From NCBI RefSeq assembly GCF_002975405.1, contig NZ_PCPS01000001.1:992001-1056000 (forward strand): a stretch of DNA of 64,000 nucleotides, read 5' to 3'. Below, piece after piece: positions 35,270 to 47,757 of the stretch. The notes under the pieces are model-generated. The model worked only from the letters and a program-made list of their open reading frames with translations, made no database searches and was not told the origin of the DNA. The position numbers and the translations under genes were made by a program. This DNA is from Arthrobacter sp. MYb229. Its GTDB lineage: Bacteria > Actinomycetota > Actinomycetes > Actinomycetales > Micrococcaceae. Every line of letters begins with the position of its first letter. Positions within the stretch are counted from its first letter, which is position 1.

Positions 35270-35309
35270 CCCCCGGATTGCCTTTCCTCGAGAGGCGGTC
35301 CGGGGGTTT
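35270..35309 (+). terminator. era terminator
   Basis: Stem CCCCCGGATTGCCT paired with AGGCGGTCCGGGGG (14 bp with two G-U pairs), 9-nt loop, followed by TTTG. It marks the end of the conserved block. Confidence 0.75.
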
Positions 35310-35313
35310 GCAT

Positions 35314-35601
35314 TTAACCGTGTTGGCTTTTAGCCGGCTTAGGAGCCTGCTCTAGACGATTCGGCTCGCCAAGGAACCGGTTAACCCCACGCCGTGGCCC
35401 GAGCTCATCTAAAAGTTGAATAGTCGCGCGGCATAGTTGACCTAGGATTTCCTTGGGTTTAACGACGTCATCGGAAGGGTCGGGAGAGCTGAGCCCCCGT
35501 CTTCTACCGTCCTCAACGAGCAGCAATGTCTTAGCGGCCGGGAACCAAATTAGTAGTGAGTCTGCAAACGATGCGCAGTTTCCGCCTGGTGGATCCTCCA
35601 C
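35314..35601 (-). CDS. Hypothetical small protein
   Basis: A 95-residue open frame with no family I recognise. It reads MEDPPGGNCASFADSLLIWF at the start and has a mixed, soluble composition. It begins right after the era terminator in an AT-richer stretch with no conserved neighbours. It may be a remnant or a chance frame. Confidence 0.25.
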   Translation of the reverse strand: MEDPPGGNCASFADSLLIWFPAAKTLLLVEDGRRRGLSSPDPSDDVVKPKEILGQLCRATIQLLDELGPRRGVNRFLGEPNRLEQAPKPAKSQHG

Positions 35602-36010
35602 CTAGCATTTACGAGGTGTAGATTTGGGATTCTTATTCCGGGCAGCTCGTTAACGTAGCGGGCAGCGAGGCCCATACCGCTCACAATTACCTGGGGCCTG
35701 GCAATTACGCTGGGCGCCGGCCGCCACGTTGCTTCGTTTTGAAGAATTCATGCTGACACCCACAAATGGCACTGCCTTGGCGACGTGGTTAGCGGATACC
35801 TCGAAACGGGTGCCTACGTACTACATGGGACTCTCAGGATCCGCCACAAGTTGGTGGTCCAGATTGAGCGTATCTGACAACTAATCCAATATTCGCTTCC
35901 TCCGTCCATACAAATTTACGCAATGCTTCGATTTTGACCCTGCGCCATGAAGGAACGGAATACCAACACCAGATGAAGAGCTGATTATCGGAGGGAGCCC
36001 GTATATTCTT
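35602..36010. other. Gene-poor segment before the IS21 element
   Basis: About 400 nt with no supportable gene. A minus-strand frame at 35834-36016 (ends VVRYAQSGPPTCGGS) runs out of the IS21 left end; it could be the tail of a gene cut by the insertion, but I do not recognise it and no matching head was found beyond 39435. Confidence 0.35.
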
Positions 36011-36928
36011 TGTCAAGAGTTGGTGTCACCGCTAACTGAATACAGACCCCTGAACGACTTTCGAAAATTGACCCCACCGGGGCCATTCAACAGTCATTCT
36101 GAGGGAGCGATTACTGTGGAACAGTGGGCAGAGATCCGTCGGCTGCATCGCGCTGAAGGCGTGCCAATGAAGGAGATCTCGCGTCGTCTTGTCATCGCAC
36201 GAAACACCATCCGTACAGCGCTGGTGTCAGCAGAACCGCCAAAGTACCAGCGCACGGGTCGATCGTCGATTCCTACGAACCGGAAATCCGTAAGCTGTTG
36301 TGTGAATACCCGCGCATGCCAGCAACGGTCATCGCAGAACGTATCGGGTGGCAGAACTCAATCTCCACGCTGAATAACCTAAACGCTCAGAACCGGCCGG
36401 AATCCACCAGCGTGGACCCAGTAGATCGCCTGGTGCACGATCTGGGACAAGCAGCGCACATGGATCTGTGGTTCCCCGAGCCACGGATCTCCGTTGGATA
36501 CGGCCAAGCTCTGATGCTGCCGGTGCTGGTGCTGACCTTATCGTATTCGAGGGTGTTCAAAGCGCTGATGATTCCCACCCGGCAAGGACCGGATCTGACC
36601 GCAGGGACGTGGCAGCTATTCAACGATGTTGGCGCGATGCCCGAGACCATGATCTGGGATCGTGAATCGGCGATCGGTGGCAAGGGCAAAGTCACCGAAC
36701 TAGCTGCAGCTTTCACAGGTACTTTGGCCACCAGGATCGTTTTGACGCCGCCGAGGGATCGAAGAATTCAAAGGGCAGACTGAACGCAATAACCAGTATC
36801 TGGAAACCTCGTTCCTGCCCGGGCGTAAGTTCACCTCGCCAGCGGATTTCAATGAACCACCGACGCAGCGGCTGCCCCGGGCAAACACACGCACGGTCCG
36901 TTCCATCCAGGGCCGGCCAATAGACAGG

Positions 36929-36931
36929 CCG
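36929..36931 (+). repeat. Left target-site duplication of the IS3 element
   Basis: CCG directly before the left inverted repeat; the matching CCG is at 38278-38280. Three base pairs is a usual duplication length for IS3-family elements. Confidence 0.75.
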
Positions 36932-36972
36932 TGTCAAGTCCCGGGTTTTGTTGAGGGCAATCGGGTAAAAAT

Positions 36973-37911
36973 CTAAGCGGCTAAAGCCGTGTCGCGCACG
37001 CCAGCGTAATAAGCGTCCTCCACCTCGGACGGAGACCGGTAATCGAGCATGCTGTGCACCCGGTCCGTGTTGAACCAATGCACCCATTCAGCGGTGGCCC
37101 GCTCAACGTCATGATGCCCCTCCCACGGGCCATCCAAATGGATCAGCTCGGCCTTATAGAGGCTGTTCAGCGCCTCGGCCATTGCGTTATCGTAACTATC
37201 ACCCTTGGACCCGACCGACGCGACCGCACCGGCCTGCTCCAAGGTTTCCGCGTACCGGATCGCCCGATACTGCACCCCGCGATCTGAGTGGTGCTTGAGA
37301 TCCCTCAGGTCAGAGCCTTGTTGACCGCGGCGATGCAGTCCCATGCGCAACGCGTCCAGCGCCAGGTCGGTATACATGCGCGTCGAGGCCTGCCACCCGA
37401 CGATCATCCGGGAGAACACGTCCAGCACGAACGCGACGTAGACCCACCCGGACGCGGTTTTCACGTAGGTTAGATCCGCGACCCAGAGCCTATCGGGGGC
37501 TGGTACGGTGAAGTCGCGATTCACCAGGTCCAGCGGCCGCCCGGTTTCCGGTGCTGGTTTCGTAGTGCGGGGATATTTTCCGCGCACCACTCCTCTCACC
37601 CCGAGCTGCCGGCAGAGCCGTTCGATCGTGCATCTGGCCACGGCGGGCTCTCCTCGGAGGGCCCGGTGCTTGTTCAGGTGCGCGTGGATTTTCCGGATGC
37701 CGTAGACCCTCCGGCGAGGGTGGGTGTGAATGGCCATGATCTGTTCCTTCAGGACCGCGTCGGTCAGGCTGCGGGCCGACGGGGCACGGTTGAGGTGGGC
37801 GTAGTAGGTCTGTGGGGCGATCTTGGCACCGAACCCTTCACTCAGGGTTCGGCAGATCGGTTCGATACCCCACCGATGCTTATGTTCGTCGATAAACCGG
37901 ACGATCAGCGC
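36973..37911 (-). CDS. IS3 transposase OrfB (DDE integrase core), made as OrfAB by -1 frameshift
   Basis: The integrase-core protein. Upstream reading in this frame gives ALIVRFIDEHKHRWGIEPIC, then the HTH_21-like segment RRVYGIRKIHAHLN, then the catalytic motifs: WVADLTYV (first Asp), HSDRGVQY (second Asp) and SYDNAMAEALNSLYKAE (Glu). It has no good start of its own in the upstream part; the first internal ATG-type start is at 37737. It is expected to be translated as a fusion with OrfA after slippage near 37941-37935. Confidence 0.9.
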   Translation of the reverse strand, partial: ALIVRFIDEHKHRWGIEPICRTLSEGFGAKIAPQTYYAHLNRAPSARSLTDAVLKEQIMAIHTHPRRRVYGIRKIHAHLNKHRALRGEPAVARCTIERLCRQLGVRGVVRGKYPRTTKPAPETGRPLDLVNRDFTVPAPDRLWVADLTYVKTASGWVYVAFVLDVFSRMIVGWQASTRMYTDLALDALRMGLHRRGQQGSDLRDLKHHSDRGVQYRAIRYAETLEQAGAVASVGSKGDSYDNAMAEALNSLYKAELIHLDGPWEGHHDVERATAEWVHWFNTDRVHSMLDYRSPSEVEDAYYAGVRDTALAA

Positions 37912-38213
37912 TGTGGGCGGTCGAACTCCGCGGCGAAAAAAGCCGCCGCGGACTTCAGGATCTCGTTGGAGCGGCGTAGTTCCCGATTTTCCTTCTCCAG
38001 CTGCCGGATCCGTGCCGAGGAGTCTTCCGGTTCGACCGGGAGTTCTTGTTCTTCGGCTTTCTTCACCCAGGAACGCAGGGCCTCTTTATGCACGTTCGTT
38101 TGCTCGGCGACCCGTGCGATCGCGCCAGCGCGGGTCTCGGGGTCCTTGCGGGCTTCAACGCAGAGCCGGGTCGCCCGTTCGCGGAGTTCTTGAGGGTATT
38201 TCGAGTTCGCCAT
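37905..38213 (-). CDS. IS3 transposase OrfA (DNA-binding part)
   Basis: A 102-residue helix-turn-helix protein of the IS3 OrfA type: SKYPQELRERATRLCVEA at the start and a leucine-zipper-like coiled coil RIRQLEKENRELRRSNEILK. It ends SAAAFFAAEFDRPQR and stop. The last part overlaps the OrfB frame. Confidence 0.9.
   Translation of the reverse strand: MANSKYPQELRERATRLCVEARKDPETRAGAIARVAEQTNVHKEALRSWVKKAEEQELPVEPEDSSARIRQLEKENRELRRSNEILKSAAAFFAAEFDRPQR
37935..37941 (-). promoter_or_regulatory. Programmed -1 frameshift site of the IS3 transposase
   Basis: Minus strand heptamer T-TTT-TTC, in phase with the OrfA frame (X-XXY-YYZ), at the FF codons. A -1 slip here enters an open frame (RRGVRPPTALIVRFIDE) that continues into OrfB. 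The usual IS3 signal is A6G; this is the pyrimidine version. Confidence 0.65.
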
Positions 38214-38277
38214 GATGTTCTTAGGGTAATCCTTTCGGGATATCTGGCTTATCCTCTATCAAACACGGGACGCTTCA

Positions 38278-38280
38278 CCG
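38278..38280 (+). repeat. Right target-site duplication of the IS3 element
   Basis: CCG immediately after the right inverted repeat, equal to the CCG at 36929-36931. Confidence 0.75.
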
Positions 38281-38691
38281 CCGGTGGATTTGCAGGCGAT
38301 GACCCAGTTGCCGCCGATTCCACCGGCAACCGGCTTCACTCATCGGGTGCAGATCAGCAGGGATTACTACGTGCGTTTGGACCGCAACGATTATTCCGTG
38401 CATCCATCGATGATTTGGGGGTCATGTTGACTTCACGCTCACGTTGGACCGTGTGCTCGGTGTCTGCGACCAACGAATCGTCGCTGATCATCCACGCTGC
38501 TGGGCTAAGCATCAAGTCACTACCGATCCAGAGCCTGTTCAGGTTGCCGCAACTTTGCGTTCCGTGTTCAACAAGATCCGGCGCACGGCCTTTACTGGTG
38601 GGTTACAGGATCCTGTGGTGGCCTCGCGGGAACTATCTGAATACAACAAGATCTTCGGCCTTGATGGCCAAGACTTTATAGGAGATAAGCA

Positions 38692-39369
38692 ATGAGTTCT
38701 TTGGAAGCGACGATCGAGCACTTGGCCAGGGCAATGAAGATGCCGACGGTGCGTCAGACCTGGCAGCAACTAGCGAACCAAGCCAGGGATGAGGGCTGGT
38801 CGCAAGAAGAATACATTGCTGCTGTTTTGCAACGGCAAGTTGCTGACCGGGAGGCCAGCAGAACAACGTTGCGTATTGCCGGCGCTCATTTTCCTTCGAT
38901 GAAAACGATTGAGGACTTCAACTGCGAATTCCAGCCCTCGCTCAGGCGGGACGTGTTGGCCAATTTGGCCACGACAACATTCATCCCCAAGGCGGAGAAT
39001 GTGATCCTCTTAGGTCCGCCGGACGTAGGGAAAACTCATTTGGGGATTGCCTTGGGGGTCAAGGCCTGCCAGCAGGGGTATCCGACGTTGTTTGATACCG
39101 CGGCCGGTTGGATGCAGCGACTGACATCAGCTCATCAGTCAGAGAATCTGATCAGCGAGTTGCGTAGGCTCAAGCGCTATAAGTTGCTGAACATCGATGA
39201 GGTTGGGTATTTGCCGTTTGGGCGGTGGGGCGAGTTGTGCGGTGATGATGTAGTTGCTTCGGCCATGCTTGACCGGTTGGTTTATCATGCCGAGGTTTTG
39301 ACTTTGGCCGGTGATTCGTACCGGGTGAAGAATCGTCAGGACCTGCTGAAAAACGTTGATCAGGTTTAG
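38692..39369 (+). pseudogene. istB: istB ATPase of IS21, internally deleted
   Basis: AAA+ helper of IS21 transposition; starts at the ATG overlapping the istA stop. The N-terminal half is typical (RQTWQQLANQARDEGWSQEEYIAAVL, ENVILLGPPDVGKTHLGIALG), although the Walker A has Asp where Gly is usual. After the Walker B segment LLNIDEVGYLPF the sequence jumps to GRWGELCGDDVVASAMLDRLVYHAEV, missing the about 30 residues between two LPF-type motifs that contain the sensor Ser/Asn region. The frame is open, 225 residues instead of about 255, but the product is probably inactive. Confidence 0.8.
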
Positions 39370-39435
39370 GAATTTGGGTTTGGAGGGGTCAATTTTCGTT
39401 TGTCGGTAGGGGAGAATTTTCAGCTAGTGTTGACA

Positions 39436-40359
39436 GTTGGACGACGAGAGTCTCCGCTGGTTTTGCGACTGCCATACCCGCTACGGGAACTTTAGCCAGC
39501 AGCCCCATGTTTCTTCCGACTCATGATTCAGAGGTCGCTGTCAGATAGTCGTTGAGGGTACCAAAAGTCCACGTATCGCACATAGCCGTGAAATTGGTCG
39601 TCCTCGAAGTGACGAGATCACACACCGGTTACGTGGAATTCTGGTAACGAAAGTGACTAGCTGACAGCTCACCATCTGAGTTTCTTGAACGTCAGCAGTC
39701 GGTCGCAGATCTTAAAGGCTTGCTCAAGTACATCGTTGAAACTTTCGTGTTCTAGGCCTAGTTTAAGGGCGAGCTTGTCGATGTTAGTCGGATTCCTAAG
39801 CTCGTGACTCCAACTGTTCATTTCCCGGGGAATAGAAATCGTTGTGGCTCGCGCCGGTCGTGCGACGTTATGAGCGGCAGCTTCGATTGTGCGACAGATT
39901 GATACTTGACGGCTTCTGGCGCATGGCCCCCAAATTCGGTTTAAGGTGCTTCCTGCGATTACGCTGATGCGATCGAGCACTACGCTCGCCCAGTTTGCCA
40001 TGCCATGATGATTGTCGCGGCGCTCTCATGAGAATTATCAGGGTGGAGTTGACTGTCGATAAAGACTGGACAGTTGTATCATCGCCATGCTGGGCTCGCG
40101 GAGGCAAAAGCACCACTGCACTCGAGTTTCGAAAGTTGACGGCCAGCGGGTCACTAGAAGCGGAGCGGGAGTTCAGACAGATCTATACCCACCAAGCTTC
40201 ATGATGCCGAGCCGACTCGGCTAGTAACTGGGAATGGCAGGGATTGGTTGTATCTACCATTGTTTACTTGTCTTCCGGCAGTTACGGCACGTATTACGAA
40301 TTCGCTCCAGATTCTTGGTCACGGGGTTTCCTTCATCAAGCCGCTTCACGCGTGCATAC
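39436..40359. other. Segment between IS21 and hamB, no clear gene
   Basis: About 920 nt of lower GC content. The only frame worth naming is on the minus strand at 39669-40001. Another minus-strand stretch just beyond the IS end starts MGLLAKVPVAGMAVAKPAE and runs into the element; unrecognised. No tRNA or attachment repeat was found. Confidence 0.4.
39669..40001 (-). CDS. Hypothetical small protein downstream of hamB
   Basis: 110 residues. The C-terminal part (NPTNIDKLALKLGLEHESFNDVLEQAFKICDRLL) looks like a helical soluble protein; the N-terminal part is Arg/Ser/Ala-rich and less protein-like, so the true start may be later. It is on the hamAB strand, 358 nt beyond hamB. Function unknown; it may be a remnant. 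Confidence 0.25.
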   Translation of the reverse strand: MANWASVVLDRISVIAGSTLNRIWGPCARSRQVSICRTIEAAAHNVARPARATTISIPREMNSWSHELRNPTNIDKLALKLGLEHESFNDVLEQAFKICDRLLTFKKLRW

Positions 40360-43300
40360 CTAGTTGCGATTCGAAATCAGCCCGGCAAGAACTTTCGAAA
40401 AGTAGCTTGGCAGTCTTGCGACTATTTCTGTGACTTCGTCCGCGTGAGTGAACATTGACTCAAGGAAATCCTCGCCTTCGAATCCGGATAATCTTAATTG
40501 ATCTCGAAGTAAAAGGGCTACCGCCCTATCTGCGAATCCACTCTCATACGCAGATATCGAGAGTGTATCTGGAACACCGTATTTTAATGCTTTCAAGAAG
40601 GTGCCTAGAGGAGTACTTTCTCCTCCTTCGTCAGCTCCGAGGAACTGGCCGACAGCTGCAACGATCAGAGAGGCATCGAATGCAAGTGTTGAGTTCAATA
40701 ATTTGAATAAGTCGGATTCACCAAGTTTTCGCCTTTTGGAGCCGAATGGTTTGGTGAAGTTATGCTCCAAGGCAAGGTCAAATATCTGCTTGTAACTTGA
40801 GCCGTTTAGCCACGCGCTTGTGAGAGCGAAAACCGCGCCGGACGGTTCGATAGACAAAGCCATTTTGTTCTCAAAAGTCTGTTCCAGTATTGGCCATAGG
40901 ACTGAAAGTAACATCTCATTGGTCGTAGCTTCGAGTAGTTCATTCCGATTATTCTGCACCCATCTGAATACGAGAATCGCCCTCTCAGCGCTCAGAAGTG
41001 TACGGCCAAATTCAACCTGTCGTTCCGGTTCGGGAACGAATGTACTAATAGAATCGGATAGCCGACTGAACAATTGGCGGAGCGCGATCCGTTCTTGGTC
41101 AGAAGCAATTGCGAAAGCAAATGTCTGTTCACACAATTCCACAGCCTCGGTGCTGAACTCATCCAAAGACAAGGCATCGCGATTTGCCATCAGGAAGCTC
41201 TCGACGGCTTCTAACAGGTCACGCCTGCGCTTGATATCACTAACAAGGCTAGCGTCGCCGTTCGCCCGATCGAGTTGTGAGTCCTCGCCTATAAATAGCA
41301 ATTCCGTGATCTCCAATGGAGACAACTCTGCAAACGTGCTGGCCGAACTAAACGGCAATATGGCACTCAGAATCGAGCTAGTCGTTTCTTCCGAATTATC
41401 TAGGTCCAGAAGCACCGTAGATTGCTCGTACCTCCATGCGTCTTGACGATTCCTACGACGGTCAAATGTTCTGGGATCGGCAAAAATAACTAAGCCCTCT
41501 GTGTGCATGCCAGCCCGCCCTGCACGTCCGAGCAGGTTCTGGAAGTCGCGTACGCTAATGTTGTATCGGCCCTGCTGTGTGCCAGCGACGATGAGGTAGC
41601 GTATGGGAAGATTCACACCCTGGGCAAGGGTAGACGTGCAGATCACAAAACGAATGAGTTCGTTCTGCATTGCATGCTCGATAGTGAGCCTGAGCCCGTT
41701 AGGTGTATTTCCGTGGTGAACGAAAATTCCAAGTTGAGCGGCGCGCGACTGTAGGCTGTCTACTCCGAAGTGCAATTGAACCAGCTCATTGAGGCCTGCC
41801 AGTTCTTTTGGATTAGCCTCCGCAGACGGACGGGGGAGCGAAACGTCTCGGTCAAATACGTCGACAGCGCGAGCGAGTATCTTGTTTGCAGTCGCTTTGG
41901 TTCCAGCGAAAACAGCCACGGCCCCTTCGGGCGCTAAACGAAGCCCAAGGTACAGAGACACATCGGTAGCGACTGTGGCGTTACTTTGGTCAGGGAATAC
42001 ACGGTCGACTCGCTCGAGATGACGCCGCGCAAGCGTTTGACTTTCGATAGAGCGAGGGACAAAATAGTCAGGCTGAATATCGTAGTTCGAGGTCTCAAAA
42101 AATTGGAGTTGGCCACGCCGCTCCATCCAAGTTGCAAAGGCTACGGCACGAGCGGTTGGAGACAGTCCGCTCCCATCGACAACGGTTCCATCATCGCCGA
42201 GTAACCACGATCTTAGGCTTTCTGCATTTCTGATCACGGCGGATATTGCCACTACTTGTGAACTTATTGGCAATCCAGCTCGCAGCTCAGTAACAAGTAA
42301 CTCGTATGTCACACCCCTTGTGCCAGAATCGAATTGATGTGCTTCGTCGTAGACAAGGAGATCAATATGCCCAACAAGTTCTTGTTCCTGTCGTAGCACG
42401 AATTGAAGTTTTTCGGGAGTAAGCACAAGAATCCCAGGGGGCGAATCTACCCTCAAATCGACTCCGAACAGTTTGGAAAATTCTGAGGAAAAGTCGTGCT
42501 GGAGCGCATCGGACAATTCGTTAACCTGCACGTCATCATCGGCAAACGCGAGGTTAAGAGAAGTAGCGATCTCGTGGCTTAAAGCTCTGAAAGGTGCGAC
42601 AACAACTGCGAGATTTACCCGTTCAGACAAGAACCCAGAACGGAGGATCATCTCAATCGAGCGAGTCTTTCCTGCACTTGTTGGCATCTGTACGATCCCC
42701 GAGGTACCTGCGAATAGTCCGGATCTACCGATTTCCATTTGCGCCGGCCAAAGTTCTTTCGGGAAGTTCGGATTCCGGATTGGGGTCCGCCACCGCTCTA
42801 GAGCCACTCCGCTGTACTTAGGCAGCATAACCCAAGATGATGATTGAAACTTGAGACGGAGAATCGCGACTATTAGGTCCGCGAACAGGAGATCCCGCGC
42901 AGATGGACTCGCGTAGGCCAATGCGCGGAGACGCATTGCTGCAGCCATCGCATCGGCAGCATCGGTCCCTTCAAGAAAATGCATTGCGACTAAACTAGCA
43001 ATATCGGAAGCTAGACGCAGGTGAGCCCCTTCTACGATTGTAGGCAGCTCGTAATTATTATGTAGGATCCAGATTAAGAGACTTTCAGCCGACGATTCGG
43101 CAGCACCAGATATAAGTTTGTCAGCCATAACTCGACTGCTCCCCGGACGCCCCGACAAGTAATACGCTGAGGATGCGAGCAGTGTAGTGTCGCTATCTAA
43201 ATCCGGGGAAAGATTTGAACTCAAGAGTGCATCGAAATAGCTAGCCGCAAAATCTAGTTCTTCATGCTCACTTGGCGAGATCGAGTCACCGTCGTTCAGC

Positions 43301-43470
43301 TGAGCAGCGGTATCCCCGAGAGTCGCAATTGCCAACAGCAAAAGTGACTCCGGTTCGTCATTTGCGCGGAGTCGCAATTTTTGATGTTCTGCAGGCAACC
43401 CAAGTTCGAGCATCTTCCCCTTGGCTCGTGTCACCCCATAAAGTCGGAGACTGTCCGCTTCAGGCTTCAT
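40360..43470 (-). CDS. hamB: Hachiman defence helicase HamB (superfamily 2)
   Basis: Large DEAH-type helicase, 1036 residues. An N-terminal helical region (1-240) precedes the two helicase lobes: motif I MPTSAGKT (about 262-269), AP-FRALSHE (Ia), TPEKL, DEAH at 375-378 (motif II), ISAVIRN (III), FAGTKATANKIL, CTSTLAQGVNLP (V) and QNLLGRAGRAG (644-654, VI), Ski2-like in style. A long C-terminal helical region follows. It begins 11 nt before the end of the HamA nuclease gene; that pairing is the Hachiman arrangement, in which the helicase scans damaged or phage DNA and licenses the nuclease. AT-richer than the core genes. Confidence 0.8.
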   Translation of the reverse strand: MKPEADSLRLYGVTRAKGKMLELGLPAEHQKLRLRANDEPESLLLLAIATLGDTAAQLNDGDSISPSEHEELDFAASYFDALLSSNLSPDLDSDTTLLASSAYYLSGRPGSSRVMADKLISGAAESSAESLLIWILHNNYELPTIVEGAHLRLASDIASLVAMHFLEGTDAADAMAAAMRLRALAYASPSARDLLFADLIVAILRLKFQSSSWVMLPKYSGVALERWRTPIRNPNFPKELWPAQMEIGRSGLFAGTSGIVQMPTSAGKTRSIEMILRSGFLSERVNLAVVVAPFRALSHEIATSLNLAFADDDVQVNELSDALQHDFSSEFSKLFGVDLRVDSPPGILVLTPEKLQFVLRQEQELVGHIDLLVYDEAHQFDSGTRGVTYELLVTELRAGLPISSQVVAISAVIRNAESLRSWLLGDDGTVVDGSGLSPTARAVAFATWMERRGQLQFFETSNYDIQPDYFVPRSIESQTLARRHLERVDRVFPDQSNATVATDVSLYLGLRLAPEGAVAVFAGTKATANKILARAVDVFDRDVSLPRPSAEANPKELAGLNELVQLHFGVDSLQSRAAQLGIFVHHGNTPNGLRLTIEHAMQNELIRFVICTSTLAQGVNLPIRYLIVAGTQQGRYNISVRDFQNLLGRAGRAGMHTEGLVIFADPRTFDRRRNRQDAWRYEQSTVLLDLDNSEETTSSILSAILPFSSASTFAELSPLEITELLFIGEDSQLDRANGDASLVSDIKRRRDLLEAVESFLMANRDALSLDEFSTEAVELCEQTFAFAIASDQERIALRQLFSRLSDSISTFVPEPERQVEFGRTLLSAERAILVFRWVQNNRNELLEATTNEMLLSVLWPILEQTFENKMALSIEPSGAVFALTSAWLNGSSYKQIFDLALEHNFTKPFGSKRRKLGESDLFKLLNSTLAFDASLIVAAVGQFLGADEGGESTPLGTFLKALKYGVPDTLSISAYESGFADRAVALLLRDQLRLSGFEGEDFLESMFTHADEVTEIVARLPSYFSKVLAGLISNRN

Positions 43471-44326
43471 CGGCGGCCCTCAAATATAAACCATGGGCTA
43501 ATTTCATGAGTTGATTGCCATGAATGACTAGCAATTGAAGGTCCTTTTGATGGGGGTGATTATTCGAAGTCGAGGCGTGAAGCATGCTCGAGTCGTAGTT
43601 TGTGTCATTGACGACTGCGCCGGCTCCAAATCGGAGGTCGAAGGGATGATCTACCTTGTTCTGGAATCTGGCAACGCTGGCCACCCCGATCGTATTCTGA
43701 CGAGCCCTCAAAAGTCGCTTCGCTTTGTTTAACGTATAGCCGAGTCTCGCGTAATCGGTACCTGAATCGTCAATAGCGTCTTGTAGTCGATTTCCGCTCC
43801 CTGCCGCAGACAAACGAGCCTTTACTTCGAATGCAAGTAATGAATCGCTCGCTTGGGCTTTTGTTGCATCAAGCTGCCAGAAGCCCACCACGTCTACTCC
43901 CTTTACCGATTCGTTGGGATTCGCCTTGTCTGCGTATTTCCACCTAGGGACCCAAAAACCCAGGATGTGCTCGACATAATCTGAAATAACTAGCTCTGCG
44001 AAGTCACCAGCGCGAATCGCAGGACCCGCACCGCTTTTTTCTGCCGGAAATACAAAATTCAAGAGATAATCCCGCCGGGAGAGGCCCGTACCATCCCGGA
44101 GTTCGTCAATCTCCTCGTCAAGGCAGTATGCCTGTCGGAAAGCCGACGCCCAATCACTGAGTACTGATGGGTCATCTGGCACCTTCAACGCACAGACTTC
44201 GATGGGTTCACCACTCGAACTGGCAAGCGCCGGAAGCTGCACAAGGTGTTCGGAAAGGTAGTCGGGCTTCTGCGAAAAAAAAGATGAGAGGGCGTTAGAT
44301 CTACTTGATCGGACAGATTCGCTCAC
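43460..44326 (-). CDS. hamA: Hachiman defence nuclease HamA (DUF1837)
   Basis: A 288-residue protein with the DUF1837 layout and a PD-(D/E)xK-like active site: E111 in GDFAELVISDYV, D145 in VKGVDVVGF and E167-x-K169 in LLAFEVKARLS. It is followed by DSGTDYARLGYTLNKAKRLL and a His/Asn-containing C-terminus. In Hachiman, HamA is the DNase effector held in check by HamB. GTG start. Residues 15-18 are coded by a run of eight T, a possible slippage point. The 11-nt overlap with hamB indicates translational coupling. AbpA-type proteins are related, so the exact subtype is less sure. Confidence 0.78.
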   Translation of the reverse strand: MSESVRSSRSNALSSFFSQKPDYLSEHLVQLPALASSSGEPIEVCALKVPDDPSVLSDWASAFRQAYCLDEEIDELRDGTGLSRRDYLLNFVFPAEKSGAGPAIRAGDFAELVISDYVEHILGFWVPRWKYADKANPNESVKGVDVVGFWQLDATKAQASDSLLAFEVKARLSAAGSGNRLQDAIDDSGTDYARLGYTLNKAKRLLRARQNTIGVASVARFQNKVDHPFDLRFGAGAVVNDTNYDSSMLHASTSNNHPHQKDLQLLVIHGNQLMKLAHGLYLRAADEA

Positions 44327-44804
44327 TTTCGAGGCCCGTCCATTACTGGTCGTTTAGTCAATTCACCAGATAACTTCCGGATCACGTTACCCCTAGTAAC
44401 TTCAAAGAAAAATTTTTGCGACATTCTCATACTCTAAACCTTTCTACGGTTGGGCCTCTGAACCGCCGTAATAGCCACGTTGCTGATAGTCTCTTTCATC
44501 AACAAAATGCCACTCCGCGTCAGACTTCATCGTCAGGTTTGCAGCTCGTTCTTGGCGCATATCTGTATGTTTGTCCTCGCGCCGAAGTTTAGGCGCGAGT
44601 TGAAGATTCCTATAGACAGTGATAGTTGCGCGCGATTGGTTAGAGTGAATACAGAATGGCGTGCGGCGCACCGATACTGGGTTTTAGAGTGCGATTTTTG
44701 ACGCGGCTGCGGAACGAGGATATTAGCCATATTGTCTTCTTTATAGAGGCTGGCCCATGCTGCTGACAGATCATTGCGCTACGACTAAGCGTGTTTAAGG
44801 TGGT
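44327..44804. other. Gap between hamA and the CPBP gene
   Basis: 478 nt. Three short overlapping frames on both strands share the same bases and none resembles a known protein. It holds a perfect hairpin, CTCGCGCC-N8-GGCGCGAG at 44576-44599. The hamA promoter is presumably here, but no clear -35/-10 pair was found. Confidence 0.4.
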
Positions 44805-45623
44805 TCAATACAGGAAAATCGGCAGCCAGTCACGGTTGTGCGCGTGCACCAGCGCGAGGAACAGTACGAAGTCGAAGATCAAATGCACCGAGACGACGTA
44901 GGTCAGCGACTTGGTCAGCTTGAAGGTATAGCCCTGCAGCAGGGCGAAGGGGAACGTGAGAAGCGGACCCCAAGCCTGGTAGCCGATCTCCCAGAGGAAG
45001 GAAGAGAAGATCACCGCCTGCAGGATATTGGCGAGCCAGTCAGGGAAGTGGCGTCGCAGCAGCGTGAAGGTGGTGCAGATGAAGAACAGCTCATCCCAGA
45101 TGCCCACGGCGTTCACTCCGAGGAAGAGCCGCCAGAAGATGGTGGGATCCGAGGCGTCCGGCCAGTTCTGGAAGACCCCCGTGCTGATCAGGTACACCGG
45201 CAGAATGAGGAAGCCCAGCGCTACCACGCCGAGCAGATACAGTTTGGCGGCCAACGGCCATTTACGTCCGGTGTTCACCGGAAATTTGATGATCTCCTCG
45301 CGGTAGGCAAACCGTGAGACCAGCCAGGGCACCAGCACGGCCATGCCGAGCGCACCACCCATCTGGAGCATGTGCCCGATGCTCAAATCGGCATTGAGCG
45401 GAACGAAGCTGATGAGCGCCAGCCCCGCCGCGATCAGTCCCAGGTGGCGGGCGAGCTGGCGATCGATAAATGCTGCCGTGAGCACGCTGAGCACGAGCGT
45501 AGTGTAGCCCGCCGGGTCATTGGCTACGGCGAAGAGCAGCACGCCGGAGAGCGAGAGCAGTACCGCCGGCAGCAATTTCCAGCTGAGCGCGGTGCGGGGC
45601 GGATCATCTAGGGTGAGCTTCAC
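44805..45623 (-). CDS. CPBP (CAAX protease / bacteriocin-processing) family membrane protein
   Basis: About 272 residues with seven or eight hydrophobic segments. The CPBP motifs are only partly kept: WDELFFICTTFTLLRR stands where EExxxR is expected and VHLIFDF where HxxxN/D is expected; the middle motif is less clear. Active members cleave near CAAX-type motifs or give bacteriocin self-immunity. The catalytic DE for EE change leaves activity uncertain. GTG start preferred; the frame opens 11 codons upstream. Composition is again G/C-rich, so this marks the right edge of the island. Confidence 0.7.
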   Translation of the reverse strand: MKLTLDDPPRTALSWKLLPAVLLSLSGVLLFAVANDPAGYTTLVLSVLTAAFIDRQLARHLGLIAAGLALISFVPLNADLSIGHMLQMGGALGMAVLVPWLVSRFAYREEIIKFPVNTGRKWPLAAKLYLLGVVALGFLILPVYLISTGVFQNWPDASDPTIFWRLFLGVNAVGIWDELFFICTTFTLLRRHFPDWLANILQAVIFSSFLWEIGYQAWGPLLTFPFALLQGYTFKLTKSLTYVVSVHLIFDFVLFLALVHAHNRDWLPIFLY

Positions 45624-46330: not shown

Positions 46331-47503
46331 CTATGTGGCGATGCGCTTGAGGATCTGCTTGGCCACCAGCCGGTCTGCTCCGGGCAGATGGGTTGCCCGA
46401 ACGATCCAACGGCGCACCAGCAGCTGCAGCTTGTTCTTCGGCAGGAAAGTATTCGCCGCACGCCGCCCCGAGGCCTGCGCGGTGGCGATGACCGGACGCA
46501 TGGCCCGTTCATAGCCGGCCAGCGCGTTCGGCAGCTGCGCCGGCTCGGTGACTGCGGCCAAGGCCTCGCCGAGGGCTGCGGCGCCGGCAATGGCCATGGA
46601 GCCGCCCTGACCGGCAAGCAGCGATACCGCGGCCGCCGCATCTCCGAGCAGCACCACCGGACCGCGGTGCCAGCCGGACATGACCACCTGGGCTACGGCA
46701 TCGTCGTAGGGATGCTCCGGGCATAGCCGAAGCAGCCGATCCACCCGTCCATCAACTCCGGCGAAGGCCTTGCGCAGCCGCTGCCGGGGATCGCTGGGCG
46801 TCGCGTCTTCCGGTTGGCGATACACCAGGAAGGCGGCAACCTCGGTGGAACGCAGCCCGTAGATCCCGGCGGTGCGGTTGACAGTATCGCTGAGCACCAA
46901 ACGGTTCTTGAACTCCCGATTCAGCTCTGGCTCTTCAACAATGAAGGCCGCCGCCCGCATCCCCAAGGGCCGCAGGTAGTCTTCTTCGGGCCCGAAGACC
47001 GCGTCCCGGACCTTGGAATGGATCCCGTCGGCGCCCACCAAGAGCTCCGCGATTTCCCGATGCTCTTGGCCCGCTAGCTGCACCTGTACCCGAGCATCCG
47101 CCGTTTCGATCCGCTCAACCCGGGCGCCGTAGCGGATGCCAACTCGGCCCGGGGCAACATCCTGCAAGGCCTTGCGCGCCGCACCTTCCATATCCGGGCG
47201 CAAGAGCGTAAGCACTCGCCCGCCTGCCAGGTCCGAGAACTTCTGGTAATCCAGGCTTGCGGTGCGCCGGCCCTTCGCGTCAACGTATTCGGCGGCCTGC
47301 ACCCGGTAGGCAACCTCTGCCAGATAGGGGTAGAGCCCGATGCGTTCGGCGGCGCGCAGGCCGGGGCCGAAGAAGTCCATCATGTAGCCATCTGGGCGCG
47401 GCTCGGCGGAGCGTTCAAGCACCAGCACCTGCCAGCCGGCCAACCCGAGCTGGCGCGCCGCCACAAGCCCGGCAATTCCCGCTCCGATGATGATCGCCTT
47501 CAT
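46331..47503 (-). CDS. FAD-dependent monooxygenase (PHBH-like)
   Basis: About 390 residues. GxGxxG FAD motif IIGAGIAGLVAARQLGLAGWQVLVLER at the start, the DG fingerprint LLVGADGIHSKVRDAVFG in the middle, and the GD motif VVLLGDAAAAVSLLAGQGGSMAIAGA, all in the expected order for aromatic-ring hydroxylases and tetracycline-modifying relatives. The substrate is unknown. GAAGG lies just upstream of the ATG. It is divergent from leuA, 344 nt apart. Confidence 0.85.
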   Translation of the reverse strand: MKAIIIGAGIAGLVAARQLGLAGWQVLVLERSAEPRPDGYMMDFFGPGLRAAERIGLYPYLAEVAYRVQAAEYVDAKGRRTASLDYQKFSDLAGGRVLTLLRPDMEGAARKALQDVAPGRVGIRYGARVERIETADARVQVQLAGQEHREIAELLVGADGIHSKVRDAVFGPEEDYLRPLGMRAAAFIVEEPELNREFKNRLVLSDTVNRTAGIYGLRSTEVAAFLVYRQPEDATPSDPRQRLRKAFAGVDGRVDRLLRLCPEHPYDDAVAQVVMSGWHRGPVVLLGDAAAAVSLLAGQGGSMAIAGAAALGEALAAVTEPAQLPNALAGYERAMRPVIATAQASGRRAANTFLPKNKLQLLVRRWIVRATHLPGADRLVAKQILKRIAT

Positions 47504-47688
47504 CCGTAGCCCTTCCCTCAGCTCCACCGCCCGGGCCCGCGTGCAACCGGGCCTGAAATCCCATTGTTCGCACGTTTGCCCCGAGCTGTCCATGGCCATC
47601 GAGCCGATCCCGAAGATCGCTTCCACCGGCCGATGTCCACTATTTGACACAATTGAGTAGCAAATCCCGTCGCAGTTCAATGCGGTGT

Positions 47689-47694
47689 TATGCT
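47689..47694 (+). promoter_or_regulatory. Extended -10 of the leuA leader transcript
   Basis: TGT-TATGCT, 6 nt before the leader GTG. The extended TGn could make a -35 unnecessary; none is seen at 17 bp. The transcript should start at the leader start codon. Confidence 0.55.
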
Positions 47695-47700
47695 CAAAAA

Positions 47701-47757
47701 GTGCATTTCGAGCTTCTACTTCTAATCTGCCGCTGCGAGGATCCAAGAGACCGTTAG
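47701..47757 (+). CDS. leuA leader peptide
   Basis: An 18-codon frame starting GTG, reading MHFELLLLICRCEDPRDR, with four consecutive leucine codons (CTT CTA CTT CTA). It ends 90 nt before leuA and its first base is where transcription should begin. Leucine-codon leaders upstream of leuA are known in Actinobacteria; ribosome stalling at low leucyl-tRNA alters downstream RNA pairing. A stem AGACC/GGTCT spans the stop codon. Confidence 0.75.
   Translation: MHFELLLLICRCEDPRDR

Follow-up and report, generated by a model that had tools for sequence, protein, structure and literature searches.

The closest described counterpart of the locus reported here is the Hachiman pair HamAB of Escherichia coli (structures 8vx9, 8vxa and 8vxy; Tuck et al., PMC12278908), which consists of a HamA nuclease and a Ski2-like HamB helicase. 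According to that article, HamB is a DNA-surveying protein that holds HamA in check and is triggered by DNA ends, and HamA then degrades all DNA, with abortive infection as the outcome; the E138A,K140A form of HamA and the D431A form of HamB each ablated defence. AbpAB (8zue) is an E. coli anti-phage pair with Hachiman in the title of its PDB entry. HamMAB, as presented in PMC12799240, has a trypsin-like protease fused to HamA and a HamM nuclease gene upstream, and has lost the D-GExK motif. Here, a stretch of 64,000 nucleotides (nt) from Arthrobacter sp. MYb229 (contig NZ_PCPS01000001.1, positions 992,001 to 1,056,000; hereafter the window) was analysed, in which a hamA-hamB pair lies between era and leuA. 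The pair very probably (probability about 0.93) constitutes a complete Hachiman system of type I (HamA1/HamB1) that reached the era-leuA interval of this Micrococcaceae genome by horizontal transfer. It is an ordinary member of its kind and what Hachiman is stays unchanged; the sole detail of the pair that may go beyond known Hachiman is a conserved 11-nt overlap of the two genes. No publication on Hachiman with Arthrobacter was found in the open-licence literature.

Predicted products of the gene pair

The two open reading frames (ORFs) with an 11-nt overlap that the earlier note described from the letters of the window are both present, end for end (Table 1). hamA directly precedes hamB on the same strand, which is the gene order of Hachiman, and both frames are open over their full length, with no internal stop. 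The AT-richness that had been noticed was borne out: the G+C content is 51.4% in hamA and 50.7% in hamB, versus 64.5% in era, 62.6% in leuA and 60.4% in the window. A residue check located E111, D145 and E167-V-K169 in HamA, and TSAGKT (264-269), DEAH (375-378) and GRAGRAG (648-654) in HamB, so that every residue quoted in the earlier note is where it was said to be.

HamA was matched by the PADLOC model PDLC00161 at 310 bits (residues 26-287 on profile positions 9-270 of 271). As a single sequence, its best E value against PDB chains was just 0.71; with a profile of 11 aligned HamA rows, the E. coli chains 8vx9_A (4e-07) and 8vxy_A (1.8e-06) were recovered, and no further chain at E ≤ 1. In the profile alignment, E111, D145, E167 and K169 stand opposite E84, D119, E138 and K140 of E. 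coli HamA, and these four residues are invariant in 11/11 rows. D145, E167 and K169 make up the predicted D-ExK nuclease motif by which a Hachiman HamA is recognised. Structures were predicted for single chains of HamA and of HamB. When the HamA model was searched against the PDB with Foldseek, 8vx9_A ranked first (E 1.3e-05) and, with 8vxy_A, was the sole match at E ≤ 0.001. The profile search that the earlier note had proposed as a check returned HamA models and no other nuclease family: HamA was without a match in NCBIfam at E ≤ 1 and carried no other Pfam domain.

HamB scored 1124 bits with PDLC00188 (residues 1-1029 on profile positions 1-1034 of 1037) and was over the Pfam cut-offs for DEAD, Helicase_C and ResIII. 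The solved chain that best matched its sequence was E. coli HamB (124 bits), and the fold search with its model placed 8vxa_A first (E 1.5e-22), followed by 8vx9_B and 8vxy_B and then by Hel308. Matches to PDLC00188 and PDLC00189 run from residue 1, and the N-terminal HamA-binding region (NAH) is modelled as helical, with a predicted local distance difference test (pLDDT) below 50 over residues 1-90. The pair resembles E. coli HamAB in its two components, its aligned catalytic residues and its top fold matches, and differs in that the window HamA is only about 14% identical by structural alignment, HamB has 1036 amino acids (aa) versus 1174, and motif II reads DEAH in the window and DEGH in E. 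coli. AbpAB matched more weakly (HamA fold E 8.9e-03; HamB profile 51.8 bits).

By analogy with the E. coli system, the pair is most likely working. HamB would bind HamA through its N-terminal helical region and silence it during surveillance of intact DNA. DNA ends that arise in phage infection, free or single-stranded, would trigger the HamB ATPase and ratcheting, and HamA, once activated, would degrade phage and host DNA in a metal-dependent reaction involving D145, E167 and K169. The infected cell would die before phage release, and the overall mode may be described as genome-integrity-sensing abortive infection.

Relatives and alternative identities

Relatives of HamA (32-69% identity) were found in Actinomycetota, Bacillota, Pseudomonadota and Spirochaetota, on chromosomes, on plasmids and on four IMG/VR contigs. 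These contigs were obtained in a viral scan with the HamA alignment; HamA as a single query gave no viral match, and the search for HamB in phage records gave five records, all partial helicase matches, none covering 80%. HamA of the group scored best on PDLC00161 in 15/15 loci scanned (15 of the 16 distinct group loci, the Specibacter cremeus locus L004 standing outside the PADLOC scan). All nine HamB rows of one alignment matched PDLC00188 at E ≤ 1e-100; the HamB of the L. plantarum locus L034 scored best on PDLC00175. RefSeq names same-group relatives Hachiman HamA. Judged from these matches, the pair belongs to the recognised HamA1/HamB1 group, which is also present in Specibacter, Priestia, Leptospira and E. 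coli.

Outside the Micrococcaceae, the members of this group (for example E. coli Y5, Priestia flexa, Exiguobacterium, and Leptospira and Piscirickettsia plasmids) match the two PADLOC models end to end and have the same catalytic residues and the same overlap; they differ in their hosts, in a HamA identity of 32-44% to the window, and in that most HamB rows carry DEGH (7/9 aligned rows). The pair of Specibacter cremeus is closer, with 69% identity in HamA, 75% and 66% in two pieces of HamB, the same overlap and DEAH. It lies elsewhere on the chromosome, next to ORFs that resemble purU, glyA and folD (assigned by eye), and its hamB frame is interrupted by one N in the assembly.

Within the family, a HamA relative was detected in 2/149 sampled genomes, namely the window's own and G143, whose match has the same contig coordinates as the Specibacter cremeus locus L004, with seven congeners among those without a match. 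HamA matched at E ≤ 0.001 in 1/396 sampled genomes of the phylum, again the own one. Among 18 genomes of the genus, a full-length HamB was found in the own genome, and the other 17 yielded generic helicases with best matches of 38-45 bits (HamA was searched in 7/17 congeners and HamB in 17/17). The HamA1/HamB1 group looks rare in Actinomycetota, to which the window adds a Micrococcaceae member; other Hachiman groups do occur in this phylum (e.g. locus L048). DNA of the E. coli relative was matched in 19/5426 E. coli genomes, eight of them over at least 80% of it.

Three relatives showed features of their own. In E. coli Y5 (L052 8001-18573), a same-group Hachiman lies beside annotated Drt3a/Drt3b reverse transcriptases and integrases, in what looks like a defence island. 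A Nostoc plasmid gene annotated as HamA (L049 821-5050, 4230 bases) matches HamB over residues 240-993 and looks like a HamA-HamB fusion. The hamA of an IMG/VR contig (L037 4935-8853) has 80% DNA identity to that of a Piscirickettsia plasmid (L032), which suggests that Hachiman is moved by mobile elements.

Several results weigh against a complete, acquired Hachiman system in the window. HamA scored 19.4 bits with the Pfam HamA model (PF08878), under the cut-off of 25. Its predicted structure, based on eight sequences, is of moderate quality (mean pLDDT 75.5) and aligns to 8vx9_A with a template modelling (TM) score of 0.55 and a root mean square deviation of 6.3 at the low identity given above. 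Confidence is lower for the HamB model (mean pLDDT 64.9, predicted TM score 0.59), in which residues 1-90 and 438-546 have a pLDDT below 50, so that the HamA-binding region is poorly modelled. The island is known from a single genome, and a simple scan of the locus gave 2 promoter-like sites versus 4.8 expected from shuffled sequence, and 3 terminator-like sites versus 4.9. The Pfam HamA model also gave no match in 296 genomes of the phylum, a result that is uninformative on absence because the own genome was missed too. As a separate observation, a model that scores this HamA below its cut-off and misses its genome may lead Pfam-based surveys to undercount such Hachiman systems.

It is unlikely that the pair arrived together with insertion sequences and survives as a decayed or silent remnant. 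The debris of IS21-like and IS3-like elements adjoining it and promoter-like sites not above chance would fit such a remnant, but the frames and motifs are intact, and 69% HamA and 66-75% HamB identity has been retained with a Specibacter pair at a different place. Much less probable is that the pair represents a Hachiman subtype of its own, as the earlier note had allowed in calling it rather divergent and possibly a distinct subtype, or that it is a divergent system working through another effector. The window HamA is indeed divergent from the Pfam HamA model, whose cut-off it does not reach, and from the E. coli HamA of known structure; HamB is shorter than the solved protein and has DEAH where most aligned rows and the solved HamB (PMC12278908) have DEGH. 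Against this, the PADLOC models fit end to end, relatives with the same catalytic residues already carry the Hachiman name in RefSeq, Pfam finds no additional domain in HamA, and no minus-strand ORF of at least 80 aa lies between hamA and the CPBP-protease ORF. No new subtype is called for, because HamA of the group fits PDLC00161 best and HamB fits PDLC00188, and E. coli also carries the group. HamMAB and other fusion or three-gene variants were considered and rejected: HamA has 288 aa, D and ExK are present without any other Pfam domain, and the next minus-strand ORF upstream encodes the CPBP protease.

The earlier note would have given way had HamB matched best to a housekeeping helicase. 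A Hel308/Ski2-type housekeeping helicase with HamA as an unrelated neighbour is exceedingly improbable. HamB did match 14 NCBIfam models, mostly helicases, as well as Hel308 structures, yet each NCBIfam score was far below its cut-off: the best, an ATP-dependent DNA helicase model, gave 108 bits versus a cut-off of 887, and the Hel308 model gave 82 bits, whereas the HamB model scored ten times higher and Hachiman structures ranked first. Full-length relatives of HamB were found in none of the 17 congeners, and the pairing of HamA with HamB, 11-nt overlap included, is seen in several phyla. The housekeeping helicase was ruled out on the NCBIfam score and on the full-length match in the own genome alone of 18. 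The Hachiman identity proposed in the earlier note, in an actinobacterial host, was upheld by the near-full-length PADLOC matches and by the Hachiman chains that came first in both fold searches.

Overlap of hamA and hamB

PMC10666635 associates short gene overlaps with translational coupling and with subunits of complexes, and gives 4 and 1 nt as by far the commonest lengths. In the HamA1/HamB1 group, the last 11 nt of hamA begin with a hamB start codon in 18/18 loci and in 16/16 distinct loci. The survey comprised 18 loci including the window, of which L011 (identical to L052) and L050 (99.1% identical to L036 in hamA) were removed to give 16. Seven of the 12 plasmid records matching HamA were used (the others being three Piscirickettsia near-copies, one partial Piscirickettsia match and a second Leptospira record), and three of the 19 matching E. 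coli records. The hamB starts were annotated or inferred; the L033 record puts the start 27 nt further down, another in-frame ATG occurs at 35 nt in 7/18 loci, and the ORF listing of the window contains no earlier in-frame hamB start.

The overlap follows the letters ATGARGCYTGA in 15/16 distinct loci, the L. plantarum locus L034 having TTGGCAACTAA. In this plasmid-borne pair (L034 3992-7823), the one with HamB best on PDLC00175, an 11-nt overlap with unrelated letters goes together with a TTG start. Six loci of other Hachiman groups had overlaps of 17, 4, 17, 4, 14 and 4 nt (eight comparator records were hand-picked from ranks 11-25 among the best 25 of 176 matches, and six were measurable); their HamA scored best on other PADLOC models, just narrowly for L048. 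In a HamB tree of 21 rows, the 15 rows with 11 nt were separated from the rest by a branch with support 100/100, present in 100% of 200 bootstrap trees. Long branches (L034, L048) and uneven composition were flagged by the program, and support for the place of the window within the group is weak (83/72). L014 and L051, with short HamB (827 and 865 aa), were kept, and five loci stood outside: L004 (frame broken by one N), L011 (hamB in three pieces), L050 (near-copy), L047 (HamB start unlocated) and L049 (single fused gene).

Codon usage at the end of hamA was counted in 17 rows, or 15 once near-copies had been removed, with L034 outside the count. The seventh codon from the end (stop included), which sits where a Shine-Dalgarno sequence for hamB would be expected, encodes Arg in 13/15 loci and Leu or Thr in L012 and L035. 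Arg is written AGG or AGA in 13/13 of these loci, versus 72/208 Arg codons elsewhere in these 13 genes; multiplying the gene-wise frequencies gives 3.1e-7 assuming independent loci, and the loci are not fully independent. The 3' end of hamA carries the hamB start codon and probably also the hamB ribosome-binding site, and HamB is probably translated in step with HamA through translational coupling.

We tentatively propose, at somewhat under even odds, that a Hachiman branch found in four or more phyla keeps the 11-nt overlap, with the hamB ribosome-binding site in the last hamA codons, since production of HamA has to be tied to that of HamB, its keeper. If true, the overlap would act as an inbuilt lock on the dosage of a self-killing nuclease and as a simple marker of the branch at the sequence level; it offers an idea of how a toxic nuclease and a restraining helicase may be balanced. 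It is also quite conceivable, and should be taken seriously as a minority view, that the overlap is a mere by-product of conserved protein ends (...EA in HamA, MKPE in HamB) and plays no part in expression. Constraint on both ends leaves the DNA almost no freedom to vary, the overlap sequences share ancestry, and two of the 15 loci do without the AGG/AGA codon. Set against a by-product are the uniform choice of AGG/AGA wherever Arg is encoded there, and locus L034, which keeps 11 nt although its letters differ. No published description of a conserved Hachiman overlap was found among the papers listed from the open-licence literature, and the words 'overlap' and 'operon' are absent from the main text of PMC12278908.

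The era-leuA island

NCBIfam models identified the genes flanking the island as GTPase Era (358.9 bits versus a cut-off of 237) and 2-isopropylmalate synthase (878 bits versus 455). Both were sought in the own genome and 17 others of the genus, and distances were taken between protein matches: era and leuA are 12,583 base pairs (bp) apart in the window versus 265-1537 bp in 17/17 congeners, in agreement with the earlier note, which had placed the pair in an island between genes that are close in relatives. When the 17 congener intervals were aligned to the window, the era end and the leuA side were matched in 17/17, and window positions 35,306-44,855 in none. The interval can be regarded as an insertion place in this genus. 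In a comparison of window positions 35-48 kb with the Specibacter locus, nucleotide similarity was confined to hamAB (40.46-44.14 kb), as a moved module would show.

Table 1. Features of the locus, in window positions
Feature	Position	Strand	Description and basis
hamA	43460..44326	minus	288 aa, DUF1837/HamA nuclease, GTG start; PADLOC profile, fold match, residue check
hamB	40360..43470	minus	1036 aa, Ski2-like superfamily 2 (SF2) helicase, ATG start; PADLOC profile, fold match
hamA/hamB overlap	43460..43470	minus	11 nt, ATGAAGCCTGA; HamA ...DEA-stop, HamB MKPE...
GAGG, putative hamB Shine-Dalgarno	43478..43481	minus	within hamA, 7 nt before hamB ATG; suggested by sequence and Arg codon bias
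HamA E167 codon	43826-43828	minus	arithmetic from coordinates
HamA K169 codon	43820-43822	minus	arithmetic from coordinates
hamB DEAH box (motif II) codons	42337..42348	minus	arithmetic from coordinates
Imported block, approximate ends	35306..44805	none	without congener match; era-leuA distances
FAD-monooxygenase gene	46331-47746		adjoins leuA
IS21-family remnant	36048..39412	plus	Pfam IstB_IS21 4.3e-52 and inverted repeats; family name inferred
IS3-type transposase pair	36973..38213	minus	rve/HTH_21 ORF and HTH_Tnp_1 ORF, inside IS21 remnant; Pfam; family name inferred

On the leuA side, the island contains genes for a CPBP protease, a DUF4396 protein and an FAD-monooxygenase. The imported block could extend further toward leuA, because the CPBP-protease gene was partly matched in 1/17 congener intervals (L027) and the DUF4396 gene in 0/17. 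The FAD-monooxygenase gene is probably not part of the import, because it was mostly matched between era and leuA in 7/17 congeners (L019-L025), with a short part in L016 and L026; its presence there means that the interval varies even without Hachiman. The IS21-like remnant with its internal IS3-like element adjoins hamB. It is bounded by imperfect inverted repeats (36048-36078 and 39382-39412, 77% complementary) and has broken transposase frames and an IstB-like ORF of 225 aa (38692-39369).

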